Source: Thuidium tamariscinum (Eukaryota; Streptophyta; Bryopsida; Hypnales; Thuidiaceae). From it: a stretch of DNA of 64,000 nt. Below are positions 1,419 to 39,013 of the stretch, piece by piece. The translations under genes were made by a program, and so were the position numbers. Within the stretch, counting starts at the first letter, position 1; each line of letters starts with the position of its first letter. The notes beneath the pieces are model-generated. The model was not told where the DNA came from, did no database searches, and was given only the letters and a program-made list of their open reading frames with translations. The DNA is taken from contig OX344752.2 of assembly GCA_947034885.2 (NCBI GenBank), forward strand, positions 16,058,001 through 16,122,000. Reading direction: 5' to 3'.

Positions 1419-1428
1419 ATATTGTTAA
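1419..1428. repeat. Target-site duplication of element A, left copy
   Basis: ATATTGTTAA stands directly before the left end of element A. The identical ten bases occur at 39014-39023 directly after its right end. A ten-base match flanking inverted termini is what an integrase-type DDE transposase leaves behind. Confidence 0.9.
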
Positions 1429-1506
1429 CAACGACGCTAGCGTTCGAGCGTGGAGCGGTGAGCTTGTGAGCTGTGAGCGGGAATCTTGTGAGCGGTAAGC
1501 CTGAAC
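1429..1506 (+). repeat. Left terminal inverted repeat and GTGAGC-rich subterminal region of element A
   Basis: It begins CAACGACGCTAGCG and continues with repeated GAGCG, GTGAGC and GTAAGC units. The first ~50 bases match the reverse complement of 38969-39013 with a few differences. Repeated short subterminal words at transposon ends are usually the binding sites of the transposase; that role is inferred here. Confidence 0.8.
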
Positions 1507-2723
1507 AAGACTTTAATGTTCAAAAAGTTGTTATAAAAAGAAATTGGGCCAAAATTATTCCAAATTTTTTCTGAATTTACTGTTTGTATGAAGTTCTGTG
1601 ACCTATTCCCGTGCCCCCCCCTATAACTGTGGATTGTCATGAAAAATTATATTCAGTAGCCATAGATTGTTTAGGGTTTAGGTGTAGGCTTCTAAAGTTG
1701 GGTGCAAAGTGTCAAATAAAAAATTTGATTTACAGTTAAGAACTTGCAGACTGCTTTAGGTATAATGAACTGATCATGTCACTCTTCGAATAGTCAATAG
1801 TATTTTTGGGGGGCTACATAAAATTGAAAAGCAAAATTGAGGCATCTAACTATCCTATAAAAATAGGGATTTGGGACATGTATTGGTACAAGTATACTTG
1901 TAAAGGTTTAATAAACAATTTTCAAGATTAGTATGTTGTGCTACGTGAACCATTGGGGTAGACATTTAACAATTCTTTCTAAAGAAATTTGCTTAGGGTT
2001 TTGGGTTTAGGGTATGAATGTGGCTTGAGGGTGTCATTACATAGCACATGTAAATAGTTGCTCAAATTAGTTGAAAAAGACACAAAGAACTTCATTGTAA
2101 AAGATACAAAATATATCCTATAAAGAAATAACAAAAGAAGTGATGAAAGTGAGAACTTCAATGGATGAGAGGAATGGAAAAAAAATAGGAAGTCAAATAA
2201 AAATGAAGAAATAAAACACAATTGGAAATTCAAAAGAATCCTTACGGAAGTAGAGGGAAAAAAAAGGCAAAGGTGTAGAAATGGGTTCAAAATGGAAAAA
2301 ATGGGGAGATTTTTTGTTTAATGGAGGGTAAATGGAAACAATCAAAGAAAATTGAAAAGAAAATACTCAACAAATGCATATCCAAAATTAAAACCAAATA
2401 ATGATGGTGGAGGGGGAAAAAAGACAAGAGAAAAGGAATTCCGTTTTTGGGTAAAATGGAATACAAAGGTTTAAGAAATAATTGAGGAAAAAAAATGTGT
2501 TTCATATACACATGTGCATTATCATGATGAGATATACAATTTGAACTTGTACATATTCAATTCAAAAAATTATCCCACATTTCCCTTACTTTTGGGGGTT
2601 TAGGGTCCTGCATTTAGTGGTAAATATATTTCCTTCTATTCCATTATCTTCATATGATTTCATGCAGAGAATATGTCCGCTGATACAATATGGATGAGAT
2701 ACATTGAAAATAAGAAGCTATGA
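1507..2723. other. Element A left subterminal region, no gene
   Basis: AT-rich DNA between the left terminal repeat and the 3' end of the transposase gene. It holds the 3' flank of that minus-strand gene. Telomere-like words (GGGTTTAGGG) occur near 1995-2010 and 2597-2606. I see no ORF with a recognisable product. Confidence 0.5.
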
Positions 2724-5700
2724 CTATTTCGAAACTATAATGATCCCTGCACGGACTAGGAGTACCTTCAACTCATTGAAGCTATAACTAGGTGCATGAA
2801 TGAATTTATCATCATGAATATCCATCTTGCAGAAATACCTGTACAAATAGTACAAGTGCTTGCAATTCACGTATTGTGCTCGTCCTCCAATAGCAGATAC
2901 AACCATGTTCACAAAGTCTGGGCATGTACACGTAGGGAACATACCCATTGTCACTCGATAAACGTTTTTTGTAGATTCCATCCCAGTTTCCAAAACTACT
3001 ATTGCACCAAGTCCTGGGAAAGGGAGAAGGGTCACTTCTACTATTTGTCCTCTAATATTCCCAACACTCTCCCATTTGTTTCGTTGCTCTACAGTTGGGG
3101 CATTTGCAAGTCTCCTAATAGTTCGGTTGTTTCTCACTGTTGAATGTACATCCGCATTCGGTGGAGATGGTTGGTCAAGAAGGAAAGGCGTGAAAATCTT
3201 AGACATGGTAAAGAGCTTACGTAGTGACAATATCGGCTTCTCTTGGAGACGGAAGCCTGCATGCTGCAACAACAAGGTCTCTTCTCGATTGAGGTTTGTT
3301 CCACTCAAAATAGGCCAAACCTCTGGCACCTCTGGCCAATCAATGATCCACTTCCGCTTGGTACCTTTGACACATCGTTCAATGTCATCCCAACAAAACC
3401 AGAAGTCTACCACCACCTCCCGTTTAGTACCATACTCTTCTTTTCTACCACGATACGTGGGAGTAGGGGTTCCCTTTTTTCCCTTCGAAATCCTACAAGT
3501 ACATTTGATGTTGGATGTTCGTTGCTGAGCTGAACATCTAGCATTTGATTTGTGATTGATCCTAGCAATGTGCCACTTTGATCTGTCACAGTCACTTTCA
3601 AATGCTACAGTCACAAATTGAAAGCGATTTACCTCACTTTGTGATGCATTGACCTCCAATGGCTCTTCTACTATCTTAGTTGACCTTGTTCAAACACGCG
3701 GTTGGGAGAAGTTCATCTTATCTGGTCTATGAGAATCTCCAGCATCACCAATAGGCACATCCAACTTTCGCTTAGTGCTTCCAAATATTTCTTCTCCTTC
3801 TAAATGTGGTACTCGAGTTCCTACACCATGAGCTTCTGGTAATGTGTTCAACGCTTCTGCTATTTTCTTAGGGCATCCGCTAAGTCTTGCAGCTCTCAAC
3901 TTCAATTCCCCCTTCGATGGGCCTGAACCAGATGCGTGTCCTTTGAGATATGCATGGTAGTTCATCATTTGCATCCAAGCGCGAATACTATCATCACAAG
4001 TAGCGTCAAACAAATTGTTTGCGCGTTTTCCGGACATTTGCAGCCACTTGTTATGAATTGTTTCCGATAAATTACAGAAAGGCAAGTCTGTCATCTCTTC
4101 CAAACTCAATCCCTGAAATTTTAGTGATATGAATTAGCGACACAATATTCATCAAAATAAAGATTCAAGATTGCATCCTTGCCCTCCAAATAATCTAAAT
4201 GTGGGTGTTGTACAGTTTGCAAGATAAATGAAGATTGAAAATCCCAACGAATAGACGTACAGAATTCTTTAGAAGTGATAAATATGCAAACTGGTATTAT
4301 TTTGAGGCAACCAATATAATTCCGTCGGATCCGACGGAACCACATCTGTGCCCTCAAAGCAATCCCATTTCACATACTTCAGATACTAAAAAGAATTTTA
4401 TAGGAAATTTCTACTGCTCTATACTGACCAACAAATATTGGAATACAAAGACTGAGTCCTTGTAATTGTAAGTTGAATTACATACCTTCCACATTTGATA
4501 GCAAATATAAAAACAAACTACAGACAAATCATTATTTTGCGTACCATTGTCATAAAGCCTCCCCATTGTAAATATCGAAAATGCCAGAATGCCAGCCAAT
4601 GCTCTAAGTGATGAAGAGACTCTTCGCTTGCAGCTCCAGATGACAACCACCATGACCGGATTGCAAGATAGCGTGTCTCTGCTTCATCCATGGTCTTGGA
4701 TTCTTTGTATTGCTTGCACAGCATATTGTGTTGGTGTTGGAATGCTTGCTTTATGTGTTTCTGAGTGTGCTTGATAAGAGAAGAAATCCAATGCAACAAG
4801 CATGTCCTCTCTCGATTTTGCATCACTTCATGCGGGGAACCACTGCCATAGACAATACGTACTGCATTCCAGTTAGCCATTGCATTGTCTACCATGAAGC
4901 CCTTAAAGTTTGTGTCAGGGACACCATGATTAGTCATGACAGCATTCAAACTCCTCCAGAATTGTACTTGAACTTCCGTATCTTCAGACTGCATGTCACA
5001 TACTGCAATGGTCATCACTTTCTTGTATTGTGCATCATACACGTGGCAAGCCATCGTGGTCCAGTCCTTCACGCGCTTCACGTGGTCAAACATCATCCAC
5101 GCATTGTGAAGATCACCTTGAGGTTGCATGCACTTGACGAGGTCCACTCCACTTCCAAGTCCTTCGGTCAGCATTTTGAATATGTACACTTTTTCCTTGC
5201 CTTGGCCTGGGAAAACGCTGTCGTGGATGAATTCAAACTTGGATTCTTTCTTCATAGTCATGATGTTGTCGATAACACCTCCTTGATTGTTTGTGCGGAA
5301 AGAAGAGATGACATTCCGTATACTAGGACTACTTAAAACTTGGAAGCGGTCCATGACCTCTTCCATCTCTTCTCCCTTAAGCAACTCCTTCTCTCCCTTT
5401 CCGTAGTGAAATAGATGATTTGTCAAGAAGTCTTTGCTAGCAGACAATGCAATAGCAGAGTTTGTAGCCGTTGGAGTTTTAGACACTTGTTCTTCAATGA
5501 GTTTGCTAATCTCCTTGGCGGAGTCTCTATACATGCCTTTAGCTACCGGATGAGTATGACTTCCAAAGTGAATAGCGGCTCTACTCATTTCGGGATTATC
5601 ACTGTAGCAGTAGTAAATCCTAGCGTCACACATGCCAATGCAACTAGGTATATTTTTGCAGACTTTGCAAATAAGCCTACAATCTTTAGGAGGACCTTCT

Positions 5701-6704
5701 CCTATTACAAAAGGAAAAATAGTAGACCCTATCCACTCTGTTTCATTCTTTCTAGAAGCCCTCTTCAAGTACTCACACTCAGTATTCTCACAAACAAGAT
5801 GACCAACGCAGTATGACTTACGAAACTTCAGATTGTCTGCGTTGTGGATGTTTGTTGTCACAAGCTTGCACCAAGGATGTCCGTCATAACGCTTATCCAT
5901 TCCCTCCAGGTTCTTGACAGCTGAGGAAGAAGATGAGGAGCGACAAGGTGGTAACTCAAAAATGGAGTCCCCGTTGTATGCAGGTGGTAGAAACGCTACC
6001 CGATGATGTTTCATGGTATTCAGGTCTACTGTAGACAATTCACTCCTAGAACGATGAAGAGTAGAAAGTCTGTGGAGACAATCCATAATACTGACCGACC
6101 TCACAGTATTTGATTGTGGCAAAGGACTAGGAAGATAAGACTGAGAAATAAAACTACCTTCCATTTTCCTATCAGAGTGAGGGGTGGCCTTTTCACTTGA
6201 ATCAGTTATAATCATGGAGGGTTTAGGGTTAAGAGACGAGGGTAGGAACTCTCCTTTCGAATCGCTAGATAAATCTACAATAGTATCCAACTTCTCTACC
6301 TTCACAAGAACATCATTTTCTTTTGTAGCAAACATTGGGAGATGACTGCGAGCAGGACTTGGTATAGATGCCTTAGCCGTAGATGGCATGTCCACTGTTG
6401 AGTTGGCAGAGTGGCGACTTCCTATTTCAATTGACAAAGGATGCATTGGTAGAGGGAGACCATACACTCTATAATTTCCACAACCCAAGGACCAACAATG
6501 TCCTCCTTCACATAGTGACTTCACAAGAGGACTAGATTGCAGCAATTCACCTACCTCAGACTTTCTCTCTTCCTCAATATAGACAGATGACTCAACGAAC
6601 TTGAACCTCACATGAAGATAGTGGCTGAAAACAGTAGTGTACCTTTTTTCATCAAGTGGGAAGACTAAGGGAACCTCGTGACCATCTACACGTATAGAAG
6701 CCAT
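2724..6704 (-). pseudogene. MULE-like SWIM zinc-finger transposase of element A (one in-frame stop)
   Basis: Two exons on the minus strand: 6704-4545 (720 codons, starting MASIRVDGHE) and 4112-2724. The intron at 4544-4113 has donor GTACGC and acceptor TTTCAG. Exon 1 carries a SUMO-interacting-like motif (IVDLSSDS) near residue 140, then a WRKY/GCM1-type Cys/His region with CVGHLVC. The DDE-type core follows: first Asp in MFDHVK, second Asp in GFMVDNAMANWNAV, then CLLHW and a Trp-rich stretch. Exon 2 ends in a SWIM finger, CTCPDF followed by NCKH. The family cuts and pastes DNA by binding terminal repeats in the nucleus. The start is the ATG shared with the copy in element B; exon 1 is exactly the same length in both. 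An in-frame TGA (3690-3692) interrupts exon 2 before the SWIM finger, so the product would be truncated. The core is otherwise open, so inactivation looks recent. Confidence 0.88.
4320..4339. repeat. Perfect 20-bp palindrome in the transposase intron of element A
   Basis: TTCCGTCGGATCCGACGGAA lies inside the only intron of the transposase gene. Its core TCGGATCCGA recurs six more times (one with a mismatch) in the introns of the other gene of element A. Element B has a matching site at the same place in its own transposase intron (20254-20271). Confidence 0.85.
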
Positions 6705-7458: not shown

Positions 7459-7770
7459 ATGCTTATGCTCTTAGAGGGCCACACTTCTATTGTTGATAAC
7501 TCACAGCCTGTTAGAAAGAGGAGAAAGCGAAGATTGTTTCATTTTTCTTCCAATAGAGAACTTCGTAGGGCTAGGATGACATGGGCTAAGAGGACTCTCT
7601 CTAAGTCGAGCGACTCAGGAGCTGTTGATACTCGGAAGACTCTTCGTTTCGAAGGCGGAGCGAGCGGTGAATCTATAATTGCTGTACACAAGGATGTGGA
7701 GGCGGGGCATGGCGATTTCAACCCCAATTTGGAGGCTCACGAATCTGGACCTACAGATGAAGTTGAGAAT

Positions 7771-8930
7771 GTAAGAAACTTGTAGTCTATTCCAACTCCT
7801 TCACCATTCATTGCCTTTCATGTTCTGGACATTTTCTTCATTTAAGGATGAAAATAGGACGCATAATAGACTAGTTAAGTCTATTCTCTACAGAATTCTT
7901 CATTGTCATTAAAATTGATAACGCTGACATGCTTTCAATTCAAAGAGTAGTATTTACAATTAAACCTTGTAGGAAACTAGGATATAGAGATCCAAAATTA
8001 CAGTGAGAAAGCTCCACAGGAAATTAGTGGGCACTTCCAAGTTCCTCTAAATTGAAGTAAAATACATAAGTAGAAGTTTTTGACTACACCACGTTCATGT
8101 AAGAGGAGCTGTCGTAGACTAATCTTCTATATGAATTTAGATGTAAGAAGGTTAGACCAAGTACTCATATAGCAAAGGAACTAGGTTATTCAATTTCAGT
8201 AGCAAATATAGGACAATACACAATACTGAAAAGAATTTTCTGGAAGTCACTTTCTCTTACAATGATTGTCTCCCTATTCATTTCCAAATCTATAAGGTCA
8301 CTTTTTCTTTAATGGAGTACATTGTAATGAAGTGTTTTGAAGATGCCACTTTTATGGGTTGCTGAAAGCACATGTTCTGTATTTTCTCCTTCAATGAGTT
8401 TTTTGGGTTTAGGGTGATGAGTCTTAAACAATGTTCATTTTAAATACCTGCAGATTGATTAGGACAATAATGATAGATTGTATTACAAAGTTTGAACATG
8501 CTACCACTTGCTTCAACATTTCTTGCCAATAGATGGGTTCCAAGGAATACAGAATTCTAAAACCTTAAGAGGATAGACACGAAGGTCAAAGTATTGTGAG
8601 TTACCATGTAACTAGTTCTATTGTTAAGAGCTTCTCCTGTAGTCTATCATTTTATGCTAAACCCTCAACGCAACAAACTTTCGCTTAGTGATTCAAGGCC
8701 TCGTGGTAGTGAATTATGCCTAATGAGTTATGCTTCCGAAGCATACAGAAATTGCTGGGTGGGAAGTACTGTGCTTGGGTTACTTGTTGGCGCTATGAGG
8801 AAGACTACAAATCAGTCAAATTTTATAGCAAGAAGACGGAGAATGCAAACTCAGTAAATCAAAATCTACTCATTCAGTATGACTCTGTCTAGTAATCAAA
8901 GTCATGAAGGAGCAAGAGTCGGTCAAAATT
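7771..8930. other. Intron 1 of the element A ParB-methyltransferase gene, left part
   Basis: AT-rich sequence following the GTAAGA donor at 7771. There is one telomere-like word (GGGTTTAGGG) near 8404. No exon is supported here by comparison with element B. Confidence 0.45.
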
Positions 8931-14141: not shown

Positions 14142-14726
14142 AGTCCTTCCAGAATGACACGCACCACCCGAAGCCACGCGAAACAAGGGGAGGCAAGGGG
14201 AGTCGACGCAACGGATCCTGGACAAAGGCCACCATCCAGCCTCGCTCCTGAGGTACGCACGTCCGACACCCTCTCAAATGCAATGTTAGTATCCTAGGAT
14301 GCTTTGGCATCGCAGCACCCGCAGGACAAGCGCCTCGCAACCCGAATTCGAGGCTCGCGCCCCGCACTGCTGGCCCCGCGCTGCACACCCCTAGTCTCGT
14401 TTCCTGGGTACCCCGACCCTTGCCTAAAACCTCCGTTGGATTCGACGGGTTTTTCTGGTTCGGGTCGTGGTACCCATTTTTTTGAGTACTCGGCGATCAC
14501 TACTTGTTATTTTAGCTTCCCCGAGATGATCCCATGAATTCAACATTCAGTTTCTCATTGAGAAGTTGAGCATGATGTATACATGATTTATGGCTTGAAG
14601 AAGTAGAATTCAGCTTCAGTATCTCTTTTAAACCTGCAGATGTTGTGGTACTACTGAATTGAACCAAGAGAGTCGAAAATCAGGCTCCAGGTCGGCAGAA
14701 AAAAAAATTTATTTCCAAATATTCCA

Positions 14727-14810
14727 AATTTGGGGGTAGCAGGAGCTACCCCAGAAAACACCGTCGGATCCGACGGTGTTTCTTGGGGTAGCTCCTGCTA
14801 CCCCCAAATT
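14727..14810. repeat. 84-bp near-perfect palindrome centred on TCGGATCCGA
   Basis: The arms carry GGGGGTAGCAGGAGCTACCC and its complement, and the centre is CACCGTCGGATCCGACGGTG. Only a couple of positions break the symmetry. It lies in intron 2 of the ParB-methyltransferase gene of element A and should form a strong hairpin or cruciform. Confidence 0.88.
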
Positions 14811-14993
14811 CAGAACACCGAGAAGTCACCTTCGTCTCAGATCTCATTTCCGATTCATTATTTTGATTTTCGCTTGAGTTGCAAAGTTTCGGAATGCTGG
14901 TTCAGATTCCTGTTCATCTCCACTGGTTCCTTGGGAGAGTGATCCTTACAAGTGTTGCTCAAGAGAAACTTATAGAATTCCGTTTGTGTAACC

Positions 14994-15771
14994 AATCTCT
15001 TGTGCGGGAAATACGTTTTTTTTTTCAAATTTTGATTTCACTCATGGAAATCTGAGTACCATGACGGGCAGTCCCCAATACCTTCGGATCCGACGGTAGT
15101 TCGGTGAGACTGTCAGGGTACCTTGAATTCGGTACCATCCAGGTGAACGATAAATTTTGAATACTAAAATTTTGTGATCAATCAGGTTAATCTCTGTGTG
15201 GGAAATACGTTTTTTTTTTCAAATTTTGATTTCACTCATGGAAATCTGAGTACCATGACGGGCAGTCCCCAATACCTTCGGATCCGACGGTAGTTCGGTG
15301 AGACTGTCAGGGTACCTTGAATTCGGTACCATCCAGGTGAACGATAAATTTTGAGTACTGAAATTTTGTGATCAATCAGGTTAATCTCTGTGCGGAAAAT
15401 ACGTTTTTTTTTTTCAAATTTTGATTTCACTCATGAAAATCTGAGTACCATGACGGGCAGTCCCCAATACCTTCGGATCCGACGATAGTTCGGTGAGACT
15501 GTCAAGGTACCCTGAATTCGGTACCATCCAGGTGAACGATAAATTTTGAATACTAAAATTTTGTGATCAATCATGTTAATCTCTGTGCGGGAAATACATT
15601 TTTTTTTTCAAATTTTGATTCCACTTATGGAAATCTGAGTACCATGACGGGCAGGCCCCAATGCCGTGGGATCCGACGATAGTTCGGTGAGACTGTTAGG
15701 GTACCCTGAATTCGGTACCATCTAGGTGACCGTTAATTTTTGATTACTGAAATTTTTTGATCAATCAGGTT
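14994..15771. repeat. Four-copy tandem array, ~194-bp unit, one TCGGATCCGA core per unit
   Basis: Each unit runs from a GCGGGAAATACG-like word through a poly-T tract, CTGAGTACCATGACGGGCAG, the palindromic core, and two GGTACC boxes around GAATTC. The cores start at 15084, 15278, 15473 and 15667, a period of 194-195 bp. The fourth core has one change (TGGGATCCGA). The array lies in intron 2 of the ParB-methyltransferase gene of element A. Confidence 0.88.
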
Positions 15772-18136: not shown

Positions 18137-18146
18137 ACAGGTGTTA
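18137..18146. repeat. Target-site duplication of element B, left copy
   Basis: ACAGGTGTTA precedes the left end of element B and is repeated exactly at 34623-34632. Joining the flanks through a single copy restores an open reading frame (LIDRCY then TLIPKWHY) that aligns with the same exon in element B. Confidence 0.92.
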
Positions 18147-23247: not shown

Positions 23248-25009
23248 ATGCTAGCAACAAAGGAGACATGTGAGGGTAGTTCATTGATCACAGTGAAGAG
23301 GAGAAGGAAGAGGAGGAGGAAACTTTTCTTTTCTTCACAGAAAGAGTTACAGCGCTCCCAGTTGAGAGCACTCAATGCCTCAACGAATATGATTGTAGGT
23401 TTAGTAGGAAGTGCTAGCAACTTGGAGGAAGTCGAAGATATCGAAGAAAAGGAGTACATCACGGAGAATCTAGAGACATTTCACTTGCTTGAAAAGGAGA
23501 TAGTAAGTCTATACAATCCAACAGCTATCTTGTATTCTTTTGTAAGTAAATCATCTCAATTGAATCTATTTTGATTATGTTCTATCTTTATATTTGTCTC
23601 ATTCAATAGAGATTAGGGCGTAAGAAAGGGACTTCATTTTAGGATTAGGGTCTATGTTCCAATAGCAAGTGACTGATGTACTTGTAGACACTAAGAATTG
23701 TCCTTCATTACTTTAGCTATATTAAAAACTTGTGTATGGCTAATTGACATGAAGAATATAGGCCACCTCACTGGGATATCAAACTAGTTGCAATTGTATT
23801 GTGAGCTCCACCAGGCCGCTTGCGGCTGGTATGTATGATATCTTTCCTTGCAATGAAATTCAATTTCGTTTGTTTCAAGAAGAAAAAAACTAGTTTCAAT
23901 TGGATGATTTATTTGCTAGAATTACCCAACCTAAACTAAATTCAAGTTGTATATTCAAATAGTACACAAAACACAGAGTATGAATAGGTCATCCTAAATG
24001 AACTGTACATGTATATGAATATTGTAACAAACGTTTATCTTTAATTCATAAATGGTATACATTTAAAGGGTTATTATATAATAATATATAATATAGTATG
24101 CAAAATTTTTAAAAATATGGTAAATGCAATCCTTTCTAGAGCTTATCTCCACAGATAGAATCATGTTTCTTTTCCCTATTCCTAATCAAATTTAGAAACA
24201 ATAGACAAGGAAGGACGTAGGCAATTCTAAAGGCCTTTGTCATCTGAATTTCTATATTTCCAAAGTAATGTCCTAGCGCTCCCAAGAATAAAAACTATAT
24301 GGTAAAATATTAAATGCAGTGGTCTTCCGAACAATACATATTGCAGAATTGCCCATCTTGCTTCACTTCCATATAACATACTAAGAGCTCTCAATTTGTC
24401 CTATTAGAAACTTGTCAATCAAAAATCCATTGGAATGAATTTTTTACAGTACTTAAAACTTCTAACTAATTTATCAGTGTTTCATGTGATATAAGTTTAT
24501 GTAAAGAAATAATCATTCTTACCTATGCACAACCAAAACTAGAATTACGACAAGGAATGTACTTTCTCAGTAGAACAGAATAGGCATTAGGAAGCCTAGT
24601 GTAGAGATTAGAAACCCTAAAACTAATCTCCCTAGGGTTCCTACCAGCGCTTCGTTCAGGTTGTTTTCCTTCGTTTGTAATATCTTTGTTATCCTTGTTG
24701 AGAGCTCTCTTTACCACGTAGTAGACAGTCGTGGGTTGGAACTTCAACAGAAGGTATGGAGACCCTAAACCTAAGATCTTCGGGGTTTTCAAAACCAACT
24801 AGTTCATCTTGAATTAGCTCTGAGTTTTTTCTCCACGCTTGTATCAGGAGAAACTTGCGATGAAGAAGCGGCGGGTAACTCGAAGTGCAACAACTGCAGG
24901 ACAAGGTAGTGAGGGCGATGGGAGCGGGAGTGAGGAGCGTGGAGAAGGGACAGTTGAGGTTGGAAATCTAGCTACGAATACACAAACTGAAGCTGCCGCC
25001 AGTGAGCAG
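23248..25009 (+). CDS. 5' exons 1-2 of the ParB-methyltransferase-like gene of element B
   Basis: Exon 1 is 23248-23502 (85 codons, donor GTAAGT) and contains KRRRKRRRKLFFSSQKELQR, the counterpart of RKRRKRRLFHFSSNRELRR in element A. Exon 2 is 24848-25009 (54 codons, donor GTGTGT) with MKKRRVTRSATTAGQG, the counterpart of TRTTRSHAKQGE. Both exons are phase 0. The strongly basic start suggests nuclear targeting or nucleic-acid binding. I could not find an equivalent of element A exon 3 before the ParB exon at 28966, so exons 1-2 may belong to the same gene or to a separate small gene. Confidence 0.55.
23503..24847. other. Intron 1 of the element B ParB-methyltransferase gene
   Basis: An AT-rich interval between exon 1 and exon 2. 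Apart from a retroposon tail at 23797-23887 nothing is recognisable. Frames of about 70-90 codons on the minus strand near 24523-24904 have no domain and overlap the exon 2 acceptor. Confidence 0.4.
23797..23887 (+). mobile_element. Truncated LINE/SINE 3' tail
   Basis: A ~91-bp insert has a CCAGGCCGCTTGCGGCTGG hairpin, then CTTTCCTTGCAATGAAATT and an A-rich end. It is flanked by AACTAGTTGCAATTG (23782-23796) and AACTAGTTTCAATTG (23888-23902), one base apart. It is related to the reversed tail at 10128-10215. Confidence 0.65.
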
Positions 25010-25368
25010 GTGTGTTTCTTTCTGGAATCTCGTTATCTCAGATTTGAGAATGGAGACTGACTCCGTAGTTGGTCTCCATTACACCTTTGCTGTCAAGAAT
25101 GTCCACTGAATCCACAAATATCGTAACACTTGTGATGCATTAGGATACCCTAATTTCATATTAGGGTTCACTGGATTCTTCGAGCGGGCTGTCTTGAGTT
25201 TCATTGTCAGTGACTGGTGTAATTTTCTTGATTTCTAGTTTTAGGCCCCGGTTGACACAATAGATTCGGCTCCCGTGTTTCTCCATTAATCATGCTTCCA
25301 TAAAGAAGCGATATGCTTGAGCTAAAATTAAGCATCGCAATACAGATTTCTTTCTCCATCCGATCCGA

Positions 25369-25392
25369 CCGAAGGTACCTTCGGTGCCGAAG
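25369..25392. repeat. Overlapping palindromes CCGAAGGTACCTTCGG and CTTCGGTGCCGAAG
   Basis: A perfect 16-bp palindrome (25369-25384) runs into a second one holding TCGG-TG-CCGA. It is the first TCGGNNCCGA site of the long intron in element B. Confidence 0.75.
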
Positions 25393-26823
25393 GGTACTCA
25401 CGCTGGGATTTAAAAAATCTTTAGTGGAGCGGACCTCTTGCGAAAAATCGAAACTAGATGCCAAGTTTGTAATTTACAGAACCACCATTCCTTTTAGCAC
25501 CATCTCGGGTGGGTGGTCTTATAGTAGCTTCAAACTGTCTCAGGGTAGCTTCAAACTTAGGGTTGCTTCTGTTCGACTTATGCGAGATGCAAAGCCTCCT
25601 CCCCTTGGATTTTGAATCTTAGATCCCGAGCCAATAAATGGCTAGAAATACCTGCGCAGCTGTTGAAGGCCTCGCAAAAGCAGATAGGTTCGAATCTTGT
25701 ACCAGCGCCTGAAGTGCACTTGCTTGTCCACTTCGAGTACCCGCCACCCTGAGTGCGTGCTTCTCGACCTTTTGGCCTGTGACGTAAGGATTCCTTGCGG
25801 ATTTGACGTTTGTGGTGAGAACTGAGAACTGGACGTGGGCACTAATCTCGCCGTAGCAGATCCAGCTTGCCCGGCTATTTCTCTCTGTCGGAGCGCGTTT
25901 CGGAATAGGAAGGGGAAGGGGAAGATCATTAGGGTGAGCCTAAAGATTGCACTTTTTTTTTTGGTAAGTCTTTGGATGCTTGAGCTTTCCCGACTCCTCC
26001 TGAACTTCATCGCCTGCACTCGCTTCCTGGCCTGGATGCCAAGTTTGTAAATTATCGGGAAGCTCCGAAGCTAGCCTCATGATGCCCAGTGACGTCGCGG
26101 TGAAGGAGCTTGAATGTGGGGAATGATGAGTCGCAGGAGTCCTTCAGTTGCACACAAGTGGAGTGCTACTTGAATAGGAGTACATGAACAAGCGCGCGAA
26201 TTTGGTCCGGAGCAGGTAGTTAGCTAGCTGGAGATCGATGAAGAATGGTGGTTTAGTGGTTCTGTGATTATGGCTCTAGCGGCCAAGGCTTTTATTGTCG
26301 ATGTGCGGGGGATCGATGAGCTCAAGTTCTACCCGAGCGCGTTTGAATCTCCACGCCACGGGGTGGCATGAAGAAATTGAATGAAACGTCTGCATGAGAT
26401 GCAGGGCACAAGTCCGCGCGTATTACGTGTTGTGAGGAGTCATGATCAGTTGACCTGCGTTAGATTGGATCGATGTAGCATTGGATCGATGTACTGTGGT
26501 CCATCAGAATAGGATCAGTCGGCCATGTAGAGCAGCAGTACGGATCATTATGGATTTGCGGTGGGCAGCCCTCGACGCCGATTGGAGTCCTACTTCAATG
26601 TCGACGAGATCACGATCGTAGTTGGTTCAGCACGTTCCCTACATTAAAATTCGTAACTGCTTTAAATACTGGAATGCATTTGGCTTGGTGAAGATCCCGG
26701 AACTTGATAAGCCGGGCAATCGAGTTCGTGAATAACAGTAGTGTTGGTAACGGCTAAGTTGTACCAACTTCAATTCTTTAGAGGAGGTCGATTTACGTAT
26801 ATTAATTGCTCAAACCGAATTGA

Positions 26824-26891
26824 TGAAATGAAGTACCCTGGTTTCATACAATTTATTTAACCAAATTGATGAAACCAGGGTACTTCATTTC
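26824..26891. repeat. 68-bp hairpin with 23-bp perfect arms
   Basis: The arms at 26824-26846 and 26869-26891 are exact inverted copies (GAAATGAAGTACCCTGG...). The loop AT-rich segment is itself partly symmetric. It could be a small foldback element or a structured intron site. Confidence 0.75.
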
Positions 26892-27257
26892 TGGCGAGAG
26901 TTCAGTCGATGCCACCCCACCCTCGGGAGAGCGGGAGGTTTCTGCGGTGGGAGAGAACGGGTCTTCGGGGGAGGGCAAGTTTTCTATTTCGCGTGGATCA
27001 GCGTAGGGCGTGGGCAGTTCCGAAGGGATGTTGTTGCACGGCGTGGGTTTTGGCGCGTCGGAGTACAATCTGATGTCCGGTTTGGGGAAGCAGTCTAAGT
27101 CTCGCGAGTCTGTTCCGAGTATGGTCTCGTAGGGAGTGAGCCCTATGTAGTTGCAGGGCCAGGGTCCGCATCAACATCACTATCATGGGGGTGCGGGTGC
27201 GCATCTTGGTGGTCTGACTTGAAAATCTACGAGATTTCGGTGGGTTCCACCTCACCC

Positions 27258-28880
27258 TCGGCGCCGAATGCATGCGACCTGGAACGACCAGGTGAACTCG
27301 GGATTCGAGGATGCTCAGCGGCCTTGAGCTTCCAGCCTCCAACTAAATGAGCGCATTGGCCATACTTGCTTCGCCAGCTTACTAGTAACCGACGCGACCA
27401 CTTTCCAAATCTACGGGACAGCCTGAGACGCTGCCAGAACTCAAACTCATCCCGGCTTTTAATTCCTTGCCGGTTGAATTTGCTTGTCTGCCTGCCTGTC
27501 GAAAACTCTGAATGACTGAGCATTCTGGGCATTTCTGCGATTAGGTAACTTCAGGGTCTCAGTGGGTGCCATCCCAGAACTGCTCTCGGCGCCGAATGCC
27601 TGGAGCCTCTCCTGAACGGGTGATCTTCGGAATATGGTCTCTTGGAATCTGTTGATTTCTTCATCGATTCTTTTCGTTGAAATTTTAGTACATGTGCACT
27701 CTCCGCAGATCCGTTACGTTGCATGGATCAATCAGTCCTGCAGGGTCCAATCATTCTCTCGGTAGTCTCATTAGTGAAGACTTCATCGATGTCGAAATAG
27801 TCATGGAAATTCTTATCTAGAAGCAGCTTCATTAATTAGGTATGGGAGATTGATTCAAAAGTATTTCATTTAGAACCTGCCTTTGTATCGTGAATTTTTA
27901 ATATAATTTTTGATTATCGGCGTGCATATTCCTATTCTAATGCTGAAATTACAACAAATTATAAAGATAATCTACATTACAATGCTAATTTAGCTTTTCA
28001 GCCTATAATATGATGAAGCTAATCAAGTTTTGATATGTTATATCAAGATTAGAATTACCTAAAATCTACACAATCATTGCCCTCGGCGCCGAAGGTAGGC
28101 ATGAACCTTTGCAGTCTTGATAAGTTGGTTATATAATTAGTTTCAAAGAAACTTTGTTTTTCTTATTTCTACAGTTCAATTTAATTTGTTTGATCTACAA
28201 CAATGCACTGTAAACTTTCTCTCGGCGCCGAGGGTAGGCTTGGACATCTATAGTTTTGATACATTGTATGTGTTATAGGTGTCAATATGCTCTTAATTTT
28301 GTAGTTTCATAGATCAATTTGTTTCTTTTTTTCAGTGAGGATACAGTCAAAACTTCCTCTCAATGATGAATGTAGGTATGATGTGTGATATAGGAAGTTA
28401 GTGATAGTAGTATATAGAGTTTATGTTCATAAATCCAAAGGACTGATTTTTAAATTTCTAAGTTTTCAAAACTATGTTACTTATCATAGTGTGCTTGATA
28501 TTGGCAACATCTCTATTTTTGTCATACTCAACAATCAGAGTTGTAATGAAATAGGAATGTCCAACTATGATTCCATTGCTTAGGTTCATATTTCTCTTTC
28601 TAAATTAGTGACCTGGACCTTCCTCTCGGCGCCGAGACTAGAATTGAAAGACTAGGAATTGATCACAAGAATTCCTACCATTGTGAAATTTTAGCTTGTA
28701 CATTTGGAATTTCGAATACTCTCTCTCCCCTTAGCTGTTGGTTTTTTATGTTATAATACGAGAGATCACTATTCATTAGTCTTCATTTGATTAGCTTAGT
28801 ATTCATCTTCTATACCTAAATCAAAAAATTTGGCTATATTGAGCACCCATTATTAGCCAGTATCCACCAATCGGGGCCGA
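27258..28880. repeat. Dispersed TCGGCGCCGA palindromes of element B
   Basis: Exact TCGGNNCCGA cores start at 27258, 27586, 28083, 28222, 28626 and 28871. The first five have CG at the centre and the last has GG. Several sit in a longer shared word, CTCGGCGCCGAGGGTAGGC-like, and the best is the perfect 14-mer TCTCGGCGCCGAGA. A degraded copy of the surrounding word is at about 28353-28375. Confidence 0.85.
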
Positions 28881-28965
28881 GGGGTATTACCGAAGTTATG
28901 GTGTTTGATTAGTGCTTTGCAATTCAGTCATATAATTACAACATTTTGTTTTGATTCCTATGTAG

Positions 28966-31900
28966 ATACCAATTGTTGTGACAAATCCATTGGACACTCA
29001 AGAGTTGGAGAGAGCTGATGTTTCCGAGATTGAAGAAATGGAGGGGAGCTTGGCTGAAATTGCGATACCTGAAGTAAACGAAAGTATCACTGAGGATGCT
29101 CTTAGGAAATCGCAGAAAGTGAATTCTGTTTCATCCATTTCAGATTTGCGATTGAAGCCCCATTCCATTTCACGCCTGATGATTCCCTTATGTCGAATGG
29201 TCGTCATGCCAATGGTCAAGCCAGCATTGCAATGTGATCTCACAAAATTGGAGAACAGTTTTGTAAATGGTTACATGGATGGTTCAGCTGTCTTTTACGT
29301 GTCCGTTACTAATGAGCAGGGTGAAGAAGAGCAGTATACAGACGCAGAGAAACAATCCTGGGGTCCACTGTGGAATGCCAAAAATGACCTATTCAACGCT
29401 CACTTGAACAGTACTCCTGATTTGCAACATCTTCAAAACTCAAAGTTTTTTGTATGTGATGGGAACCATCGACTCCTTGCTTGGAGATCTTACATTTCAA
29501 GGCACCACAATACTGAAATGGAGTGGCATTATTCGGTGGATTCTATCATACTGGAGATCAAGGGCAAAATTGGAATTGCCATGCACGCAATGCATGATAT
29601 AAACAAGTATGTTTAATTTTAAGTCCTTTTGTTTTGTGAAAAGTTATTTGATTGTTTTCTTATATTCTTTGTATTTACTGATTATGTTTAATGTTTGATT
29701 TCAGGCAGACTGAGAACTCATTTATCAAGACGAGTTTGGTTCATACATTATACCGTGTTCGCAAATATGGAGTTTTACCAATCGAGAAGTTTTCAGAGCA
29801 CTTAAGCCGCTCTGAAATTGCTCAATGTAAGCAAAACCTCCGGAAGAGTTGGTACTCAATGTCAATTGAGGTTTTTACTTCCTTTATTTTTCAGGTAATT
29901 TTTTTTTTCATTATTTATCTTGATTAACTCTTTTGCTTATTGTTTGTACTTTCTCGTATCATTGTCTTTATGTTGTTTTCATCTTTTTTAATTCTCTGAT
30001 TTTTTTTTCTTGGCAGTATGAGATATCAGCAGCAGCTGATACTGCAGCGCGTGTTTATAAAGAGGAAACACCAGAGGAAGAACAGTCATTGGATGAGATC
30101 TGCGAAGCAATGAGGATTGGCAGTAAAGACAAGGCCTCTAAATTGATCCAGAAGATGGGAAAGCTTGTAGCTGTTGCTAATCCCAGTCTTGGTGCCGAAT
30201 GGCTACAAGAGGTATGAAGAATATATCTTTGAACTCCTAGTTCTTTTTTTTCAAGTACTTGAATAGTTCTAATTTTTTTTCTTCCTCATTACAGATTGAG
30301 CGTCATTGGAGCTCCAACATCAATCCAGAAATGACGTTGGAGAAACTTCAATTAATTGCAACATGCAATGTGAAGCCAGAGCAAAAGGTTAAGTGGCTTC
30401 GATGGTGGAATGCATCGATTCAGACTAGAGAGGCACGGAGATTCCCAGCGAAGCCAGTTGGAGAAAATGAGTTGAAGTCCTTTCTAGGAAAGGCATGTTG
30501 GTATGCTGGGGTACGTGTCAAATTATATTGTAAAAAGAATGAGTTTGGGTCAAAACAAGGTAATAGGAGCCAATCTTGACGTGCTTATGGGTCCTTTTGG
30601 AGGTCCTTTTGAAATTTTCAAGGAATGTTTTGTTCAAAAACTTCATCAATTTTATAAAAATTGATTCTAAAAATTATTCAAAGTTGTTAATATTGACAAA
30701 TTCTATTCAAAATATTATAACTTTCAATAAAAAAGTTCCTAAATCCTCTATTTTGAATTTCACCAAAGGACTAAAAAGCACTGGTTACATGAGGTTTTTT
30801 ATGCTTAATCAAAATAAAATGATGACATAATAGACAATAAAGTACTTTAACATGAGACTATAACATCTATGATTCTTAAAGTATAATTTTTTAAGAAAAA
30901 CCAATTCAAATTTGAGCTTTAAAATCAATAATTGTCCAAAAAAAACAATGGTTACGTCAAAATTGGCTCCTATTACCTCGTTTAGACCCGTTTTTGGTAT
31001 AAAGACTAGAAGTTCATTGTTTTCCTCATTGGTCTCAAAAAGAGAATTATGTACAATGTTATGATGTCCAATTGATTTTGATTCTTTTGCAGATTGAAGA
31101 GGTGGGATCTGAAATGTTTGACAACTTTGTGAAGAAGGATCACCTGATGGTCAATATGGATTCTCCACAAGAGCCTGAGTCATTTACTGAGTACATAGAG
31201 GGCTGGAGGATTCGAGTATGGGATCATGCCTTTCTGATGTATTTTCGGGGACATGATGTATTCAAGAAGTCTGATGATTTTAGGAAGCACAAGGGCTCTG
31301 ACCTTGCTGTCAAACGCGTTGTCTATCGGTGAGAATCCAATTAATTTTTGCCTTTGTTGTACTTTGGACTGAAATTGTATTTAAGCTATGTGATACTGAT
31401 TTTGGAACATGGTTGATTTCTTTTTTTATAGGTACTTCAAATTTGAGTTGTTGCCCAAAGGAGCTATTGCGAAGCGAGATCTTCCGCCTTTTCTAGAGAC
31501 TTGGTTGGATGTGAATTCCGATCATTGTATGTTCTCAGTTCCTCAACTCAAGTGGTGGACAAGTGCTCATTTGAAGTCGGGTGCATGGTACCTTGATTGT
31601 CCACCGGAATTCACACCAATGCCAGAGGAGCACCTCAAGCGGTCCATCAACTCCCGTGAGCTTGTACCTGAATTTGATGAGTTTGCAGGTTTGGATGCTG
31701 ATGCCAAAGCCATAGCCATGAAGAAGCGGAATGAGTTAGATCAGAGGATAGCTTTAAAGAACTCAGAGGCAGTAGAAAAGGCAAAGGAGAGAGTGGTTAG
31801 GAAGGGGAAGAAACAGGCTGATGCGGGGAAGGCTACTTCAGCTGCCAAATCCAATGGAAAAGCTTCCAAGGATCAACCTCCACCTCCATCTACAATAGAT

Positions 31901-33804
31901 GAGAGCTCACAGCACCAACGTTCTAGTTCTCGAGGCACTAAACGTGATGTTGAGTATATGTCTTTGGGTGAAGAGGGCATGATACATGGCCCTTCAGCAG
32001 TAGAGTTTCTTAATGACTCAGAGATTACTATCAATGAGTTGTTTATTAACTCTTCCCTTGCAGCTGTACTAGATGATCCTTTACCCCAAGTTTACCACGA
32101 TATTCTTCACTTCATTGAGCAGGTTTGTATTATACTATCACTTATATTTGATTCTTAAATTTCATTTCATTTCATTTCATCCTTTCATTCTCTTTTTGAC
32201 TAAATACATGAAATGTTTTGCAGAACAAGGGGTCTAAGGAGAGATTCTTTAAAGGAGTTAAAAGTGTCAAGCCTCGCCTGGACTTGATGGTTGCAGACAT
32301 GCCTGAGGGATTGCGAGTTCCAAACTTGTCAGTACCCCCTACTGATGTTCCTAAGTGAAATACAGACTCACCTACATGGCTTGCAGAAGTTTTTGAATAT
32401 GCAGATGGTCACATTCACGATGATGGAGCTCTTATCATCATTCACTCTTGGAATCCCAAGATTAGAGCTAACATCTTAGGGCATGCAGCATCTTATAGCT
32501 TTCAGAAGAAGAAAGATTGGTGGGGAATGAACCGCCTTCATCTTGCCTCATCTACTTCCTCTACTTCCACGGTATGCTATTATCAACTTACAATGGTTCT
32601 TTATATTATTTGATGTACATAAATGTAATGTCTTATGAGTGTAAACCGTGTATGTTATTTTTTTTATTCTTTAGAGTAAGCATTGAAAATGATTTGTTGT
32701 CAAAGTAATGTTATGAAATCTTTTTGTATTTTTATTTGATTGAAATTTAAAAGGTTTTCTGAAGTCCTTTCTAATGTCTTGGAACTTATTTGATTTTGCA
32801 GACACAAAGATTTGGAATTGTTTTGTTTGTTAGGAATTTCACCGATGTTGGACCTTCTAAGTTCCAATTCCAATCATGCCCTAAACTAAGGGAGCTAGGG
32901 GTGGATCTTGCGGTGGACGACATTCTTCAAAACTACATCAAAAAAGAAACTTTGACGATGGATAACACCGGTAGTCCTTGGAGGGGGGCTCGGGAGAAGG
33001 ACCCTCGTTTCCTTCAAATGCTAATTGAAGCCTCATCACTTCCAGGCGATATTATCATCGACTGCACAGCTGCAACTGGTTGGTTTCTAACCTTATATGT
33101 ATATAATTTTTTCAGTTGACTTGAAGAGTTTCTTCTTTCCTACCTGAAATTTCTAATAATTTTTTTTTCGTTTATCTATTTCTTAGGGGCATCTATCCAT
33201 GCTTGCCGTATCCTCAACAGACACATCATTGCCCTTGAAGAGGACAAAGCAATCTTCAATTCAGTTTTAGCTCCAATGATTCGAGTAGGGCCCCTTGCTT
33301 TACCATCATCTGCGGCAGTTCCAGTACTTGCAGATGATCCAGATGCAGAGAATGTTCCAGTTCCTCACATTGTGAAGAAATCACGTTTCAGTAAGTAAGT
33401 CTATACTTATCTTGCATATTTATTTGAGGTTGTAAAATGTCATCTAAACCATTACAATTACATACTTGTTACATCTTTGTATATCAATGCATAATACACT
33501 TTGTTCATTTCTAATTTTATGTTTTTCTATTGGCAGCATGATTTCTAAGCAAACCACTAATCGGCCATTCTTCACTTTACCGGGATTTTTTCCAAGTCCA
33601 GAGAAGTCATACATATTGCCTCCATATGCAGCGGCTTTAGCGTCAGCTTTGGCTTTAGAGGAAGATATTCCTATAAAGGAAAAGTATAGCACTTTAGACC
33701 CTAGAGTTCTACAATATGTAGATGTTACAACTGTAGAGTCAGCAACCACATCGTCGACTAACAGTAGTGACCTTTCTCAATCTATGTCTACATCATCTAC
33801 ATGA
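28966..33804 (+). pseudogene. ParB-like / beta-class amino-methyltransferase-like protein, main exons (element B; one stop)
   Basis: Ten exons with GT-AG borders: 28966-29606, 29705-29894, 30017-30211, 30295-30510, 31093-31328, 31432-32122, 32224-32571, 32802-33078, 33187-33394 and 33537-33804 (1,090 codons with stop). Residues ~50-170 fit a ParB-like domain ending FFVCDGNHRLLAW. The middle (~215-700) is unrecognised and conserved with element A; its C-terminal part has a Lys-rich low-complexity linker. The end has the beta-class order: motif IV-like VADMPEG (Asp codon 32296), a strand IIIHSW, then KDPRFLQMLIEAS, motif I-like DCTAATGAS (from 33060) and RHIIALEED. In amino-methyltransferases motif IV is (D/S)PP(Y/F) and motif I is near DPFAGSG, so catalysis is doubtful. 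A TGA at 32356-32358 replaces the Trp codon kept in element A (PEWN), giving one premature stop. It may act in the nucleus on element DNA (inferred). Confidence 0.82.
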
Positions 33805-34562
33805 TTTTTCTTCTTATATTTTATTTGTTTTTGTTTTTTTCCAGTTCAATTTGTGTTCTCTCAATCTCTATTGTATTATATACAATAATAGTTTTAATGT
33901 AGAACCATCTATATTCAATCATTTAAGAAATTCTAGAACAGATCATGAGGAATATGAAGGTATGCAAATTTTTTCCAGTTAGCAAGATAGGAGGGATGGA
34001 GATTGCGAATTTTCCATAATTTTATTTCTAAAACTGAAATTACTATGATTTTCGGAAGCCAAAAAGTGATTTGAATGGATAGACAATGTCTAGAGTCTTC
34101 TAATTTGGATTATAATCAAGACTACTTTCCTAATTGGTACTTCTCTTACAATTTATGATACTTTGAGACATGTGTCGTAATTTAGTAGTCCCAACCTTGA
34201 AAATAGAGGAATAGTACATTCCAAACTTTAATTGTAAACCTCTTCTAGCCTTGGTTGGAAATAACCACATCCTATAGGTTAGATATGGATCCTTGGTCAG
34301 AAATAGGTGGTTCTACCATATAGATCTAGAATTCTTAAGTTCTAGATTCCTTTTCTTTCTTATATTTATCAGTTGTTGATGCAATTTTTTTAAAATATAG
34401 AATATTATAAAAAGATTCCCATTTTTTGGACTTTACATCTTACTCTTCTAATTTCATGAAGTCCACAGTTATAGGTTCCCCATCAAATTCCAACCAAATT
34501 TCCCATGGCATCAAAATTATAAATTATAAAATAATTATCAAAATTTCACCAAAAAAACCCTA
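33805..34562. other. 3' flank and right subterminal region of element B
   Basis: AT-rich DNA after the stop codon of the ParB-methyltransferase gene, up to the terminal GTGAGC array. Presumably holds the 3' UTR. No gene or distinct repeat is seen. Confidence 0.5.
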
Positions 34563-34622
34563 GGCTCACAAGCTCACAAGCTCACAAGCTCACGCTCACA
34601 AGCTCACAAAATAGCAACCCTG
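34563..34622 (-). repeat. Right terminal inverted repeat of element B
   Basis: An 8-bp unit CTCACAAG is repeated about five times, followed by CTCACAAAATAGCAACCCTG at the tip. It is the inverse of the left end at 18147-18215. Confidence 0.88.
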
Positions 34623-34632
34623 ACAGGTGTTA
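34623..34632. repeat. Target-site duplication of element B, right copy
   Basis: ACAGGTGTTA, identical to 18137-18146. The coding frame of element A exon 4 resumes immediately after it. Confidence 0.92.
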
Positions 34633-37600: not shown

Positions 37601-38581
37601 GTATATTTCCCTACATTTTAAGCGTTCTAATGTACATTTGGCCTAAATGTGCAGACACAGAAGTTTGGAGTCACCCTGCTTGTGAAGAAGCTTGGCTCCA
37701 AGGGACCATCCAAATTTTCCTTCAAGAAAACCAATATTATGGCAAAGGCAGGTGTTGATGTTGCAGAGGATGACATGCTTATGAACTACACCCATCCATA
37801 TGACATGGCCATGAATGGGGAGTGGCCTTGGCGAGGTGGGCGCAAAAAAGATCCAAGGTTCTTTACCATCCTCCTCGAAGCTACAAGCATTGAAGGAAAT
37901 TTGATATTGGATTGCACGGCATCTACAGGTCAGTGTTTAATTCAAATGTTTTACACTATAATTGTATTTCTCCCCTTCAATCAAAGCACTAATACATTTT
38001 ATTTCATTGGCAATAGGTGCATGCATTACAGCTTGCCGTGCCACTGGACGCCACATTGTGGCTTTAGAGGGCAACAAACCCATTTATGATGTTATCCTCA
38101 AGCCGATGAAGAAGTCACTCGAGCGTGTAGTAGAAACAGTGCAGTCAACGCCGGTGGTGGAGCTTTCACAGGATTTGGAGGACATGCCAGTGGTGCCTCG
38201 CAAGTTTGTTCGCAAGGGGAAATCTAGTAAGTAAATTGGCAATATTTAAATTCTTTTTTCACATGTTTGATTCTCTTTTGTGTTCAAGAAGCCTAATACC
38301 ATGTCTTATTTTTTTGCAGAGGTCGTGGATTGATGCCAACTTCTATCATCATTCCAAAACAAAGTCTTCTCATCAGCCTCGAGAAGACTTTTGAGCTCCC
38401 TATCTATGCTGAGCAATTGGCAAGTGCCTTTGCGGAGTTTGGTTGTTCAAAACCAAAATGCCGTAAAGATACTTATGCTTTAAATGTCTTGCAGTTTGTA
38501 GATGTGTCTGCATCTGAGGGTAGAGAGTCCTCAGAGTCATCTACAGGATTAGATTCTGCAACAGAGTCTACAGCGATTTAG
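34633..38581 (+). pseudogene. ParB-methyltransferase-like gene of element A, 3' part (rest of exon 4 to exon 13)
   Basis: Exons: 34633-34731 (end of exon 4), 34849-35041, 35139-35333, 35423-35638, 35770-36005, 36396-37107, 37212-37562, 37655-37928, 38017-38230 and 38320-38581. Three internal exons are exactly as long as in element B (195, 216 and 236 bases). The methyltransferase-like part reads IFIDCPENLP (motif IV position, Asp codon 37284), CIIVFHSY, DPRFFTILLEA, LILDCTASTGAC (motif I position, from 37910) and RHIVALEGNK. The Lys/Glu-rich linker is longer and more charged than in B. Two premature stops are visible: TAG at 35531-35533, where element B has Trp, and TAA at 36862-36864 after the charged linker. 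With element B upstream in exon 4, this copy cannot make a full protein. It still shows the intact sequence at the position of the stop in B. Confidence 0.85.
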
Positions 38582-38968
38582 ATTCAGAAGATTGATAAAT
38601 CTCTTGAATCAAACTATTGTGTATTGATTTTTATTATGATTGGATTTGTGTGTTTTATGGCTACTTCTTTGATGTATTTCATTTTCTTGCATAAAAATGT
38701 TTATTGCTTCATTTATATTTATTTAAATAATATTTAATCTTTGTCTTGTAGAAAATCATATAAAGAATAATCAATTAGTTGTCTTATTGGACAAAGGTAT
38801 TCCTATAAAATCCTAAACCCTAAACTCTTACAATGAATTTAAATTGTTCTAAAACAATTTCCTAAACAATGAACAAATAAGTGACAGATAATGTATATTT
38901 TGGCAACCACGGTCATAGGACCATCCACGGTCATAGACCCTTCATCAATTTTTGTGAATTTTTTTTTC
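38582..38968. other. 3' flank and right subterminal region of element A
   Basis: Non-coding. It contains two inverted copies of the CTATGACCGTGG word (38907-38918 and 38925-38936), which element B carries near its left end. A telomere-like CCTAAACCCTAAAC stretch is at about 38812. Confidence 0.55.
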
Positions 38969-39013
38969 CCGCTCACAGGCTCACGCTCCCAGGCTCGCCT
39001 GCTAGCAACCCTG
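38969..39013 (-). repeat. Right terminal inverted repeat of element A
   Basis: CCGCTCACAGGCTCACGCTC and onward to GCTAGCAACCCTG at the tip. It is the inverse of 1429-1480 with several differences. Confidence 0.82.

Follow-up and report, generated by a model that had tools for sequence, protein, structure and literature searches.

Two-gene DNA transposons of a high-copy family in the moss Thuidium tamariscinum carry a methyltransferase-like accessory gene and subfamily-specific palindrome arrays

Introduction

To our knowledge, the escape of plant transposons from silencing by DNA methylation is known mainly from the VANDAL elements. In VANDAL21, the accessory protein VANC binds short motifs that are tandemly multiplied in the non-coding DNA of the element, introns included, which leads to loss of methylation (PMC5735166). 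Another kind of accessory gene has been described in algae: the Ectocarpus transposon Sola1-1_Ec32 carries a ParB-methyltransferase gene, the same report cites green and red algal cases, and its authors propose that the product binds and epigenetically modifies its own transposon (PMC12477816). Fungal DNA transposons have repeatedly acquired a TET/JBP DNA-modification enzyme that is thought to counteract silencing (PMC12730594), and retrotransposons of dinoflagellates and charophytes carry cytosine methyltransferases of the C5 type with demonstrated activity (PMC5890265). Here, we analyze a stretch of 64,000 nucleotides from the moss Thuidium tamariscinum (henceforth the window), located at 16.06-16.12 Mb of contig C4 (OX344752.2) in a genome of 363 Mb and 19 contigs. 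It contains two nested DNA transposons, A and B, each of which encodes a transposase and a divergent accessory gene whose product appears to combine a region termed ParB-like with a beta-class amino-methyltransferase-like domain.

Both transposons are members of a high-copy family of two-gene elements. An earlier note made from the letters of this DNA had presumed a transposon with such a gene pair to be undescribed; brown, red and green algal transposons with ParB-methyltransferase genes are already in print (PMC12477816). The note also passed over the non-canonical catalytic motif, the palindrome arrays and the nesting of B in A. What is new here are subfamily-specific, GC-rich palindrome arrays located ahead of the ParB-like exon. 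In the open-access literature, with subscription papers mostly outside its coverage, we found no report of such a gene in a moss, another land plant or a Mutator-like element (MULE), nor of such palindrome arrays.

Results

Element B (18147..34622, plus strand) is nested within the ParB-like exon of the accessory gene of element A and is flanked by 10-bp target-site duplications (TSDs) with the sequence ACAGGTGTTA at 18137..18146 and 34623..34632. Removal of B together with one TSD copy yields a continuous ParB-like exon of A that can be aligned with the same exon of B. Element A, the outer transposon (1429..39013, plus strand, split by B), is bounded by the 10-bp TSD ATATTGTTAA, read directly at 1419..1428 and present again at 39014..39023. 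Its termini, CAACGACGCTAGC on the left and GCTAGCAACCCTG on the right, are common to other copies and are accompanied by subterminal GTGAGC/GCTCAC repeats. The terminal inverted repeats of B span 43 nt with 91% complementarity, and those of A are imperfect.

The ends recur elsewhere in the genome, with 233 plus 208 occurrences of the right-end pattern CTCRCNNNNTAGCAACCCTG compared to 0 plus 0 of the reversed control. Both ends were fetched for nine further copies, in six of which a perfect 10-bp TSD directly abuts either end; two more (L088, L090) have 9-bp TSDs, giving eight of nine with TSDs of 9-10 bp, and in L086 the left end was not found within the stretch fetched. The description of the window elements as two full-length copies holds for their ends and 10-bp TSDs and fails for their integrity: A is interrupted by B, and the accessory genes of both elements as well as the transposase of A (one stop) carry in-frame stops, so that neither window copy is intact. 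Many other genomic copies have open exons.

The same two divergent genes are present in both elements, as the earlier note had stated. Ten downstream exons of the accessory gene follow one another in the same order and with equivalent splice sites in A and B; they encode at least 1,089 amino acids in B, and the A and B proteins share 44% identity. To place this arrangement in the genome, we used the best 53 of 1466 candidate matches to transposase exon 1 of B, the best 150 of 819 to the transposase of A, the best 150 of 627 to the ParB-like exon and the best 150 of 1026 and of 618 to two methyltransferase-like exons, all of which are lower bounds. Pairing was counted with 150 ParB-like, 131 methyltransferase-exon and 188 merged transposase matches, the 131 being those of the 1026-candidate set that remained after dropping the weakest rows and those matching exon 9 only; the 618-candidate set was left out. 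A divergent listed transposase lies within 40 kb of 66 of the 150 ParB-like matches and of 89 of the 131 methyltransferase matches, as opposed to 2.7 and 2.5 under random placement, which rules out a chance pairing of the two genes. In another arrangement, a listed transposase lies close to five matches of either kind; for 79 and 37, respectively, none is listed in the vicinity.

Viewed from the transposase, 154 of the 188 matches are accompanied by a divergent second-gene match among those listed. The remaining 34 may lack the second gene or may be paired with subfamilies beyond the matches listed. Copies that consistently lack the second gene, which the earlier note had named as evidence against its claim, were thus not seen, and the splice-matched exons together with divergent pairing far above random place this gene within the element rather than among chance captures. 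Transposase exon 1 has a median ratio of nonsynonymous to synonymous substitution rates (dN/dS) of 0.14 (262 pairs) and the ParB-like exon one of 0.23 (170 pairs), and the medians of methyltransferase-like exons 7 and 8 are 0.14 (64 pairs) and 0.17 (55 pairs); the pairs fall within a set dS range, share copies and are therefore not independent, and single pairs reach 0.67. From these sequence comparisons, both genes look kept by purifying selection.

Two features of the genomic distribution were also observed. Contig C11 (17.5 Mb, 4.8% of the genome) holds 47 of the 188 merged transposase matches listed, an enrichment that recalls sex chromosomes. At C6:24.96-25.64 Mb, one set of transposase and methyltransferase-like matches is repeated four times in both orientations at distances of ~0.19-0.23 Mb, which suggests segmental duplication of a stretch with two elements.

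The accessory gene lies on the plus strand in both elements. Its probable first exon contains a basic stretch, RKRRKRR in A (7459..7782), where it resembles a nuclear localization signal, and KRRRKRRRK in B (23248..23517). A basic stretch in divergent orientation just upstream of the transposase start is found in A, in B and, with the locus of B counted in, at 28 of the 30 transposase loci that were fetched; as a first exon it would be joined to the rest of the accessory gene by a long intron. In A, an acidic, serine-rich stretch at 16511..16939, to which a stretch in a third subfamily (L096) is homologous, is probably a further exon. It is followed by the 5' part of the ParB-like exon (17585..18146), cut by B, and by the remainder of this exon beyond B (34633-34731). 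The next exons of A are located at 34849-35041, 35139-35333, 35423-35638 (with an in-frame stop), 35770-36005 and 36396-37107 (also with an in-frame stop), the methyltransferase-like exons at 37212-37562, 37655-37928 and 38017-38230, and the last exon at 38320..38581. The corresponding series in B comprises the ParB-like exon with its CDGNHR motif (28966..29606), middle exons at 29705-29894, 30017-30211, 30295-30510, 31093-31328 and 31432-32122, methyltransferase-like exons at 32224-32571 (one in-frame stop), 32802-33078 and 33187-33394, and the last exon at 33537..33804. Among 5.8 billion proteins searched, the only relatives retrieved were two hypothetical proteins from the moss Ceratodon purpureus (26-32% identity), the sole matches among 6125 candidates and again among 7825.

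With B taken out, the distance in A from transposase exon 1 to methyltransferase-like exon 8 exceeds the median of other copies (11.5 kb) by ~5 kb, and a further insertion is likely at 7800-14400; comparison of this region with the window itself gave no match. A 55-nt inverted repeat with a 333-nt spacer at 30547-30989, in an intron of accessory gene B, probably represents a small nested insertion. The region 16980-17330, located between two exons of accessory gene A, is GC-rich and full of GGACGTCC-type repeats.

The C-terminal part of the accessory protein is supported as a beta-class amino-methyltransferase-like domain. A profile built from nine sequences matched the PDB entries of DpnA/M1.HpyAVI (E 5.6e-7) and CcrM (E 1.2e-4), and the CcrM alignment is collinear over profile positions 18-235, with motif IV preceding motif I as is the order in the beta class. 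PF01555 was matched by all nine sequences at a best E of 6e-6, the first member scoring 26.0 bits against a cut-off of 26.7. On the S-adenosylmethionine (SAM) side, motif I has the conserved form D-x-x-A-x-T-G-A and is followed by an acidic residue. The catalytic signature of amino-methyltransferases is (D/N/S)PP(Y/F/W). Instead of DPPY, motif IV of the moss proteins reads D-x-[P/Q]-E in 17 of 18 sequences, the exception being D-C-P-K in L068; the D and E of D-x-[P/Q]-E are invariant in the nine aligned sequences. Purifying selection in spite of this altered motif would point to another active site or to a SAM- or DNA-binding pseudo-enzyme.

Searches for a viral origin of the methyltransferase part gave 47 pattern matches in IMG/VR, none of which was a relative by tblastn. 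PHROGs yielded nothing useful. Against phage sequences, tblastn returned 76 records, all weak (best E shown 0.02); among the 20 listed, 12 are annotated as DNA methylases or methyltransferases, five as DNA ligase and three have no annotation or no telling one.

The N-terminal region is named ParB-like after its DGNHR-type motif, and the name is to be read with this caveat. The stretch CDGNH is invariant in 16 aligned exon sequences, where the next residue is R, K or Q; a few other copies show single changes in it. A DGxHR motif is reminiscent of ParB/sulfiredoxin folds, a likeness that no test confirmed. DUF1015 covered the DGNHR stretch in two of the 16 members with a best E of 0.077, which is suggestive at most.

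The transposase is encoded by two exons on the minus strand, one gene per element, with ~1,180-1,190 codons. Exon 1 (4545..6704 in A, 20407..22563 in B) contains a DDE-like region with a CxxH motif, annotated in A. Exon 2 of B (18610..20016) ends in a C-terminal C-x-C...C-x-H SWIM-like finger, and that of A (2724..4112) contains a weak SWIM-like finger in addition to its in-frame stop. SWIM zinc fingers are frequent in MULEs. Here, C-x-C...C-x-H is visible in both transposases, and PF04434 (SWIM) matched that of A only, at E 0.23 and 11.5 bits, far below the cut-off of 19.6. We found 57 relatives, none tellingly named, and an alignment of 47 of them revealed conserved D, D and C-x-x-H positions. 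MULEs generate TSDs of 8-11 bp (PMC6446971), and the TSDs found here fall within this range, with 10 bp in A, B and the short copy L094 described below and 9-10 bp in further copies. No MULE or Mutator transposase profile of Pfam matched the window proteins; the window exon 1 and the 47 relatives gave only PF00872, in two of 48 sequences (best E 0.034), and the relatives had no sensible match in the PDB (best E 0.15). Based on the conserved positions and TSD lengths, we therefore call the transposase MULE-like at most. The same designation in the earlier note is retained in this sense; strict family membership is not supported.

Analysis of k-mers in the window revealed GTCGGATCCGAC to be enriched in A and CTCGGCGCCGAG in B. 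With up to two mismatches, GTCGGATCCGAC has eight sites in A, one in B and none in the 26 kb of flanking DNA, whereas CTCGGCGCCGAG has none in A, eight in B and none in the flank. Both contain the GC-rich palindromic core TCGGNNCCGA, of which six exact sites lie in A, eight in B and none elsewhere in the window. In each element one core site is located in the transposase intron (at 4322 in A; at 20255..20270 in B, with the palindromic sequence CCCTCGGCTCCGAGGG) and the remainder in the non-coding DNA that precedes the ParB-like exon. The array of A (14435..16155, core TCGGATCCGA) has sites at 14761, 15081, 15275, 15470 and 16142 and near-matches at 14435 and 15666. Each of four 195-bp tandem repeats (15016-15898) holds one site, which in one repeat differs by a core base, and two further sites are part of the 70-bp palindromes located at 14734 and 16115. 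The array of B (25378..28883) comprises seven sites of the core TCGGCGCCGA and close variants.

The same position is occupied in other copies. Across 30 copies, B included, 173 core sites lie in the 1.5 kb that precede the ParB-like exon, compared to a mean of 0.46 and a maximum of 3 in 50 shuffles, with at least two sites in 28 of the 30 loci; the exon and 1.5 kb downstream of it in these copies contain no core site. In the third subfamily (L096), two core sites occupy the corresponding upstream position, one of them within a 32-bp perfect palindrome. Genome-wide, exact GTCGGATCCGAC occurs 655 times as opposed to once for its reversed control, and CTCGGCGCCGAG 204 times as opposed to twice.

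Location of these sites was assessed in subsets. For the A type, 50 of the 655 sites were listed, all on contig C1, and 46 of them are no more than 12 kb away from a listed element gene; the DNA this close to such genes amounts to 1.7% of C1. For the B type, 41 of the 204 sites and 100 of the 441 termini, those on C1 and C2, were used: 20 sites are located inward of a right terminus at a distance of up to 1 kb (a chance of ~0.1% per site; some termini are accompanied by two sites), and 12 further sites are at most 12 kb from a listed element gene. Among the short copies, L094 spans 1,483 bp between family ends, contains one core site and is flanked by the perfect 10-bp TSD GGTTCTAGAA. With 100 amino acids, the longest stop-to-stop frame in it is too short for either gene; palindrome and ends have thus been kept in a derivative that lost both genes. 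At C1:22598890-22611711 we additionally noted four A-type palindromes away from listed genes, with a family right terminus at C1:22592548, probably belonging to an element whose genes fall below the matches listed.

Beyond A and its insertions, the window contains other repeats. Inverted repeat arms of ~740 nt at 44100-44842 and 51633-52370 (83-93% complementary, ~6.8 kb apart) probably delimit another DNA transposon with long terminal repeats, and a second long inverted-repeat pair is located at 55028-55417 and 61610-61995 (77-90% complementary, ~6.2 kb apart). A direct repeat of ~520 nt occurs at 42264-42783 and 46438-46958 (83-89% identical), and a tandem array with periods of 66, 52 and 123 bp, containing AAAACAACGG, at 50349-50658.

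Discussion

The second gene and the palindromes may together constitute a kit for self-marking or for evading silencing. Our tentative reading, to which we give slightly less than an even chance, is that the accessory protein binds the palindromes of its own element and protects or marks it in a VANC-like manner. The layout matches the motif arrays of VANDAL21; VANC itself, as far as we know, has no methyltransferase-like domain. The protein would enter the nucleus via its basic N-terminus, and its ParB-like region would bind the palindromes in the way that ParB binds parS. Recognition of the palindrome would load the protein on its own element and derivatives only, where the methyltransferase-like domain, either active with an unusual chemistry or acting as a SAM-binding pseudo-enzyme, would mark or shield the element against host silencing and thereby permit transposase expression. 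It is possible, and we advance this with less assurance, that the system goes further and represents sequence-addressed self-recognition of the parS/ParB type in a eukaryotic transposon, in which a D-x-[P/Q]-E protein acting on coevolving TCGGNNCCGA palindromes in introns and gene-less derivatives shields or marks only its own kin in the face of silencing by the plant.

Several observations weigh against this proposal. The ParB-like domain named in the earlier note is without support from hidden Markov models: a genome scan with PF02195 (ParB_N) gave 0 matches, while 10 of 14 control genomes were matched, and neither PDB profiles nor Pfam searches with 16 members supported ParB for this exon. 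A plasmid tblastn search with the ParB-like part returned two unannotated matches at E 5. For the methyltransferase-like domain, an exon-by-exon genome scan with PF01555 gave no match at E<=0.001, and the non-canonical motif IV makes catalysis doubtful. The AlphaFold models were poor (predicted local distance difference test, pLDDT, 38.6 for P0001 and 41 for the ParB-like exon, the latter too poor for a fold search), while all 16 Foldseek matches of the P0001 model at E<=0.001 were amino-methyltransferases or complexes with them, at 11-19% identity, an outcome used only alongside the sequence evidence. As for the palindromes, two of the 30 loci are without a core site, and the exons of L051-L060 are 95-100% identical to L051; since the 30 copies are related, the arrays do not represent 28 independent events. 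Four of the 50 A-type sites have no listed element gene nearby, and nine of the 41 B-type sites lie near neither a listed gene nor a listed terminus. Two short derivatives were read, L094 and L095, the second of which has 1,455 bp and two core sites between like ends and flanks without a matching TSD.

In a rather unlikely alternative, the accessory gene would encode an active N6A or N4C DNA methyltransferase that attaches to its own transposon and modifies it chemically, the role suggested by the Ectocarpus authors for their ParB-methyltransferase gene (PMC12477816). The fold and PF01555 matches, the conserved SAM-side motif with its acidic residue and the purifying selection would all be in line with such an enzyme, but a motif IV that reads D-x-[P/Q]-E in 17 of 18 sequences in place of the catalytic signature would not.

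We regard it as unlikely that palindromes and accessory protein serve transposition, i.e., end synapsis, excision or target choice, instead of acting on silencing. Nineteen of the 20 B-type sites near termini lie 370-524 nt from the right terminus, and the 1,483-bp copy with its perfect TSD retained a site after losing both genes, as would be expected for a cis site needed for mobility. However, most sites in full copies are many kb away from both ends, in non-coding DNA, and the GTGAGC repeats of the ends are better placed as transposase sites.

That the accessory gene is a functionless passenger captured once is highly improbable and was rejected: MULEs commonly capture extra genes, in-frame stops are present in many copies and 34 of the 188 transposase matches have no listed second gene, but median dN/dS values of 0.14-0.23, pairing in 154 of the 188 matches listed and identical splice sites in A and B contradict it.

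With the VANC-like reading of the accessory protein, a high-copy family would pair a methyltransferase-derived domain with a subfamily-specific DNA address, which makes recognition accessible to simple binding and modification assays. The family would extend accessory genes of the ParB-methyltransferase type from algae to a moss and to another transposase group, which would suggest capture by unrelated transposons.

Among enzymes, the bacterial beta-class amino-methyltransferases DpnA/M1.HpyAVI and CcrM share motif order and fold class with the moss protein, which differs from them in the catalytic motif. The fungal TET/JBP enzymes are dioxygenases associated with other transposase lineages, in contrast to the methyltransferase-like moss protein (PMC12730594). 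The C5 enzymes of dinoflagellate and charophyte elements share the idea of a transposon-borne methyltransferase and differ in enzyme class and in their retrotransposon host (PMC5890265). The algal ParB-methyltransferase transposons, likened here by their published description, are alike in placing a gene on the opposite strand within a TSD-bounded element and in its methyltransferase-like domain. In the passages describing them, the transposase of Sola1-1_Ec32 is Sola1, and red algal EnSpm giants are named without being tied to the gene (PMC12477816). The moss elements differ in their MULE-like transposase, 9-10-bp TSDs, high copy number, non-canonical motif IV and host lineage, and in their palindrome arrays, of which these passages make no mention. 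With VANDAL and VANC they share a MULE or MULE-like transposon with an accessory gene and family-specific motif arrays in non-coding DNA including introns. Binding and loss of methylation are experimental results for VANC, whereas the moss system is known from its sequence, and the VANC motif YAGTATTAY is not a palindrome (PMC5735166), whereas the motifs of the moss elements are palindromic.

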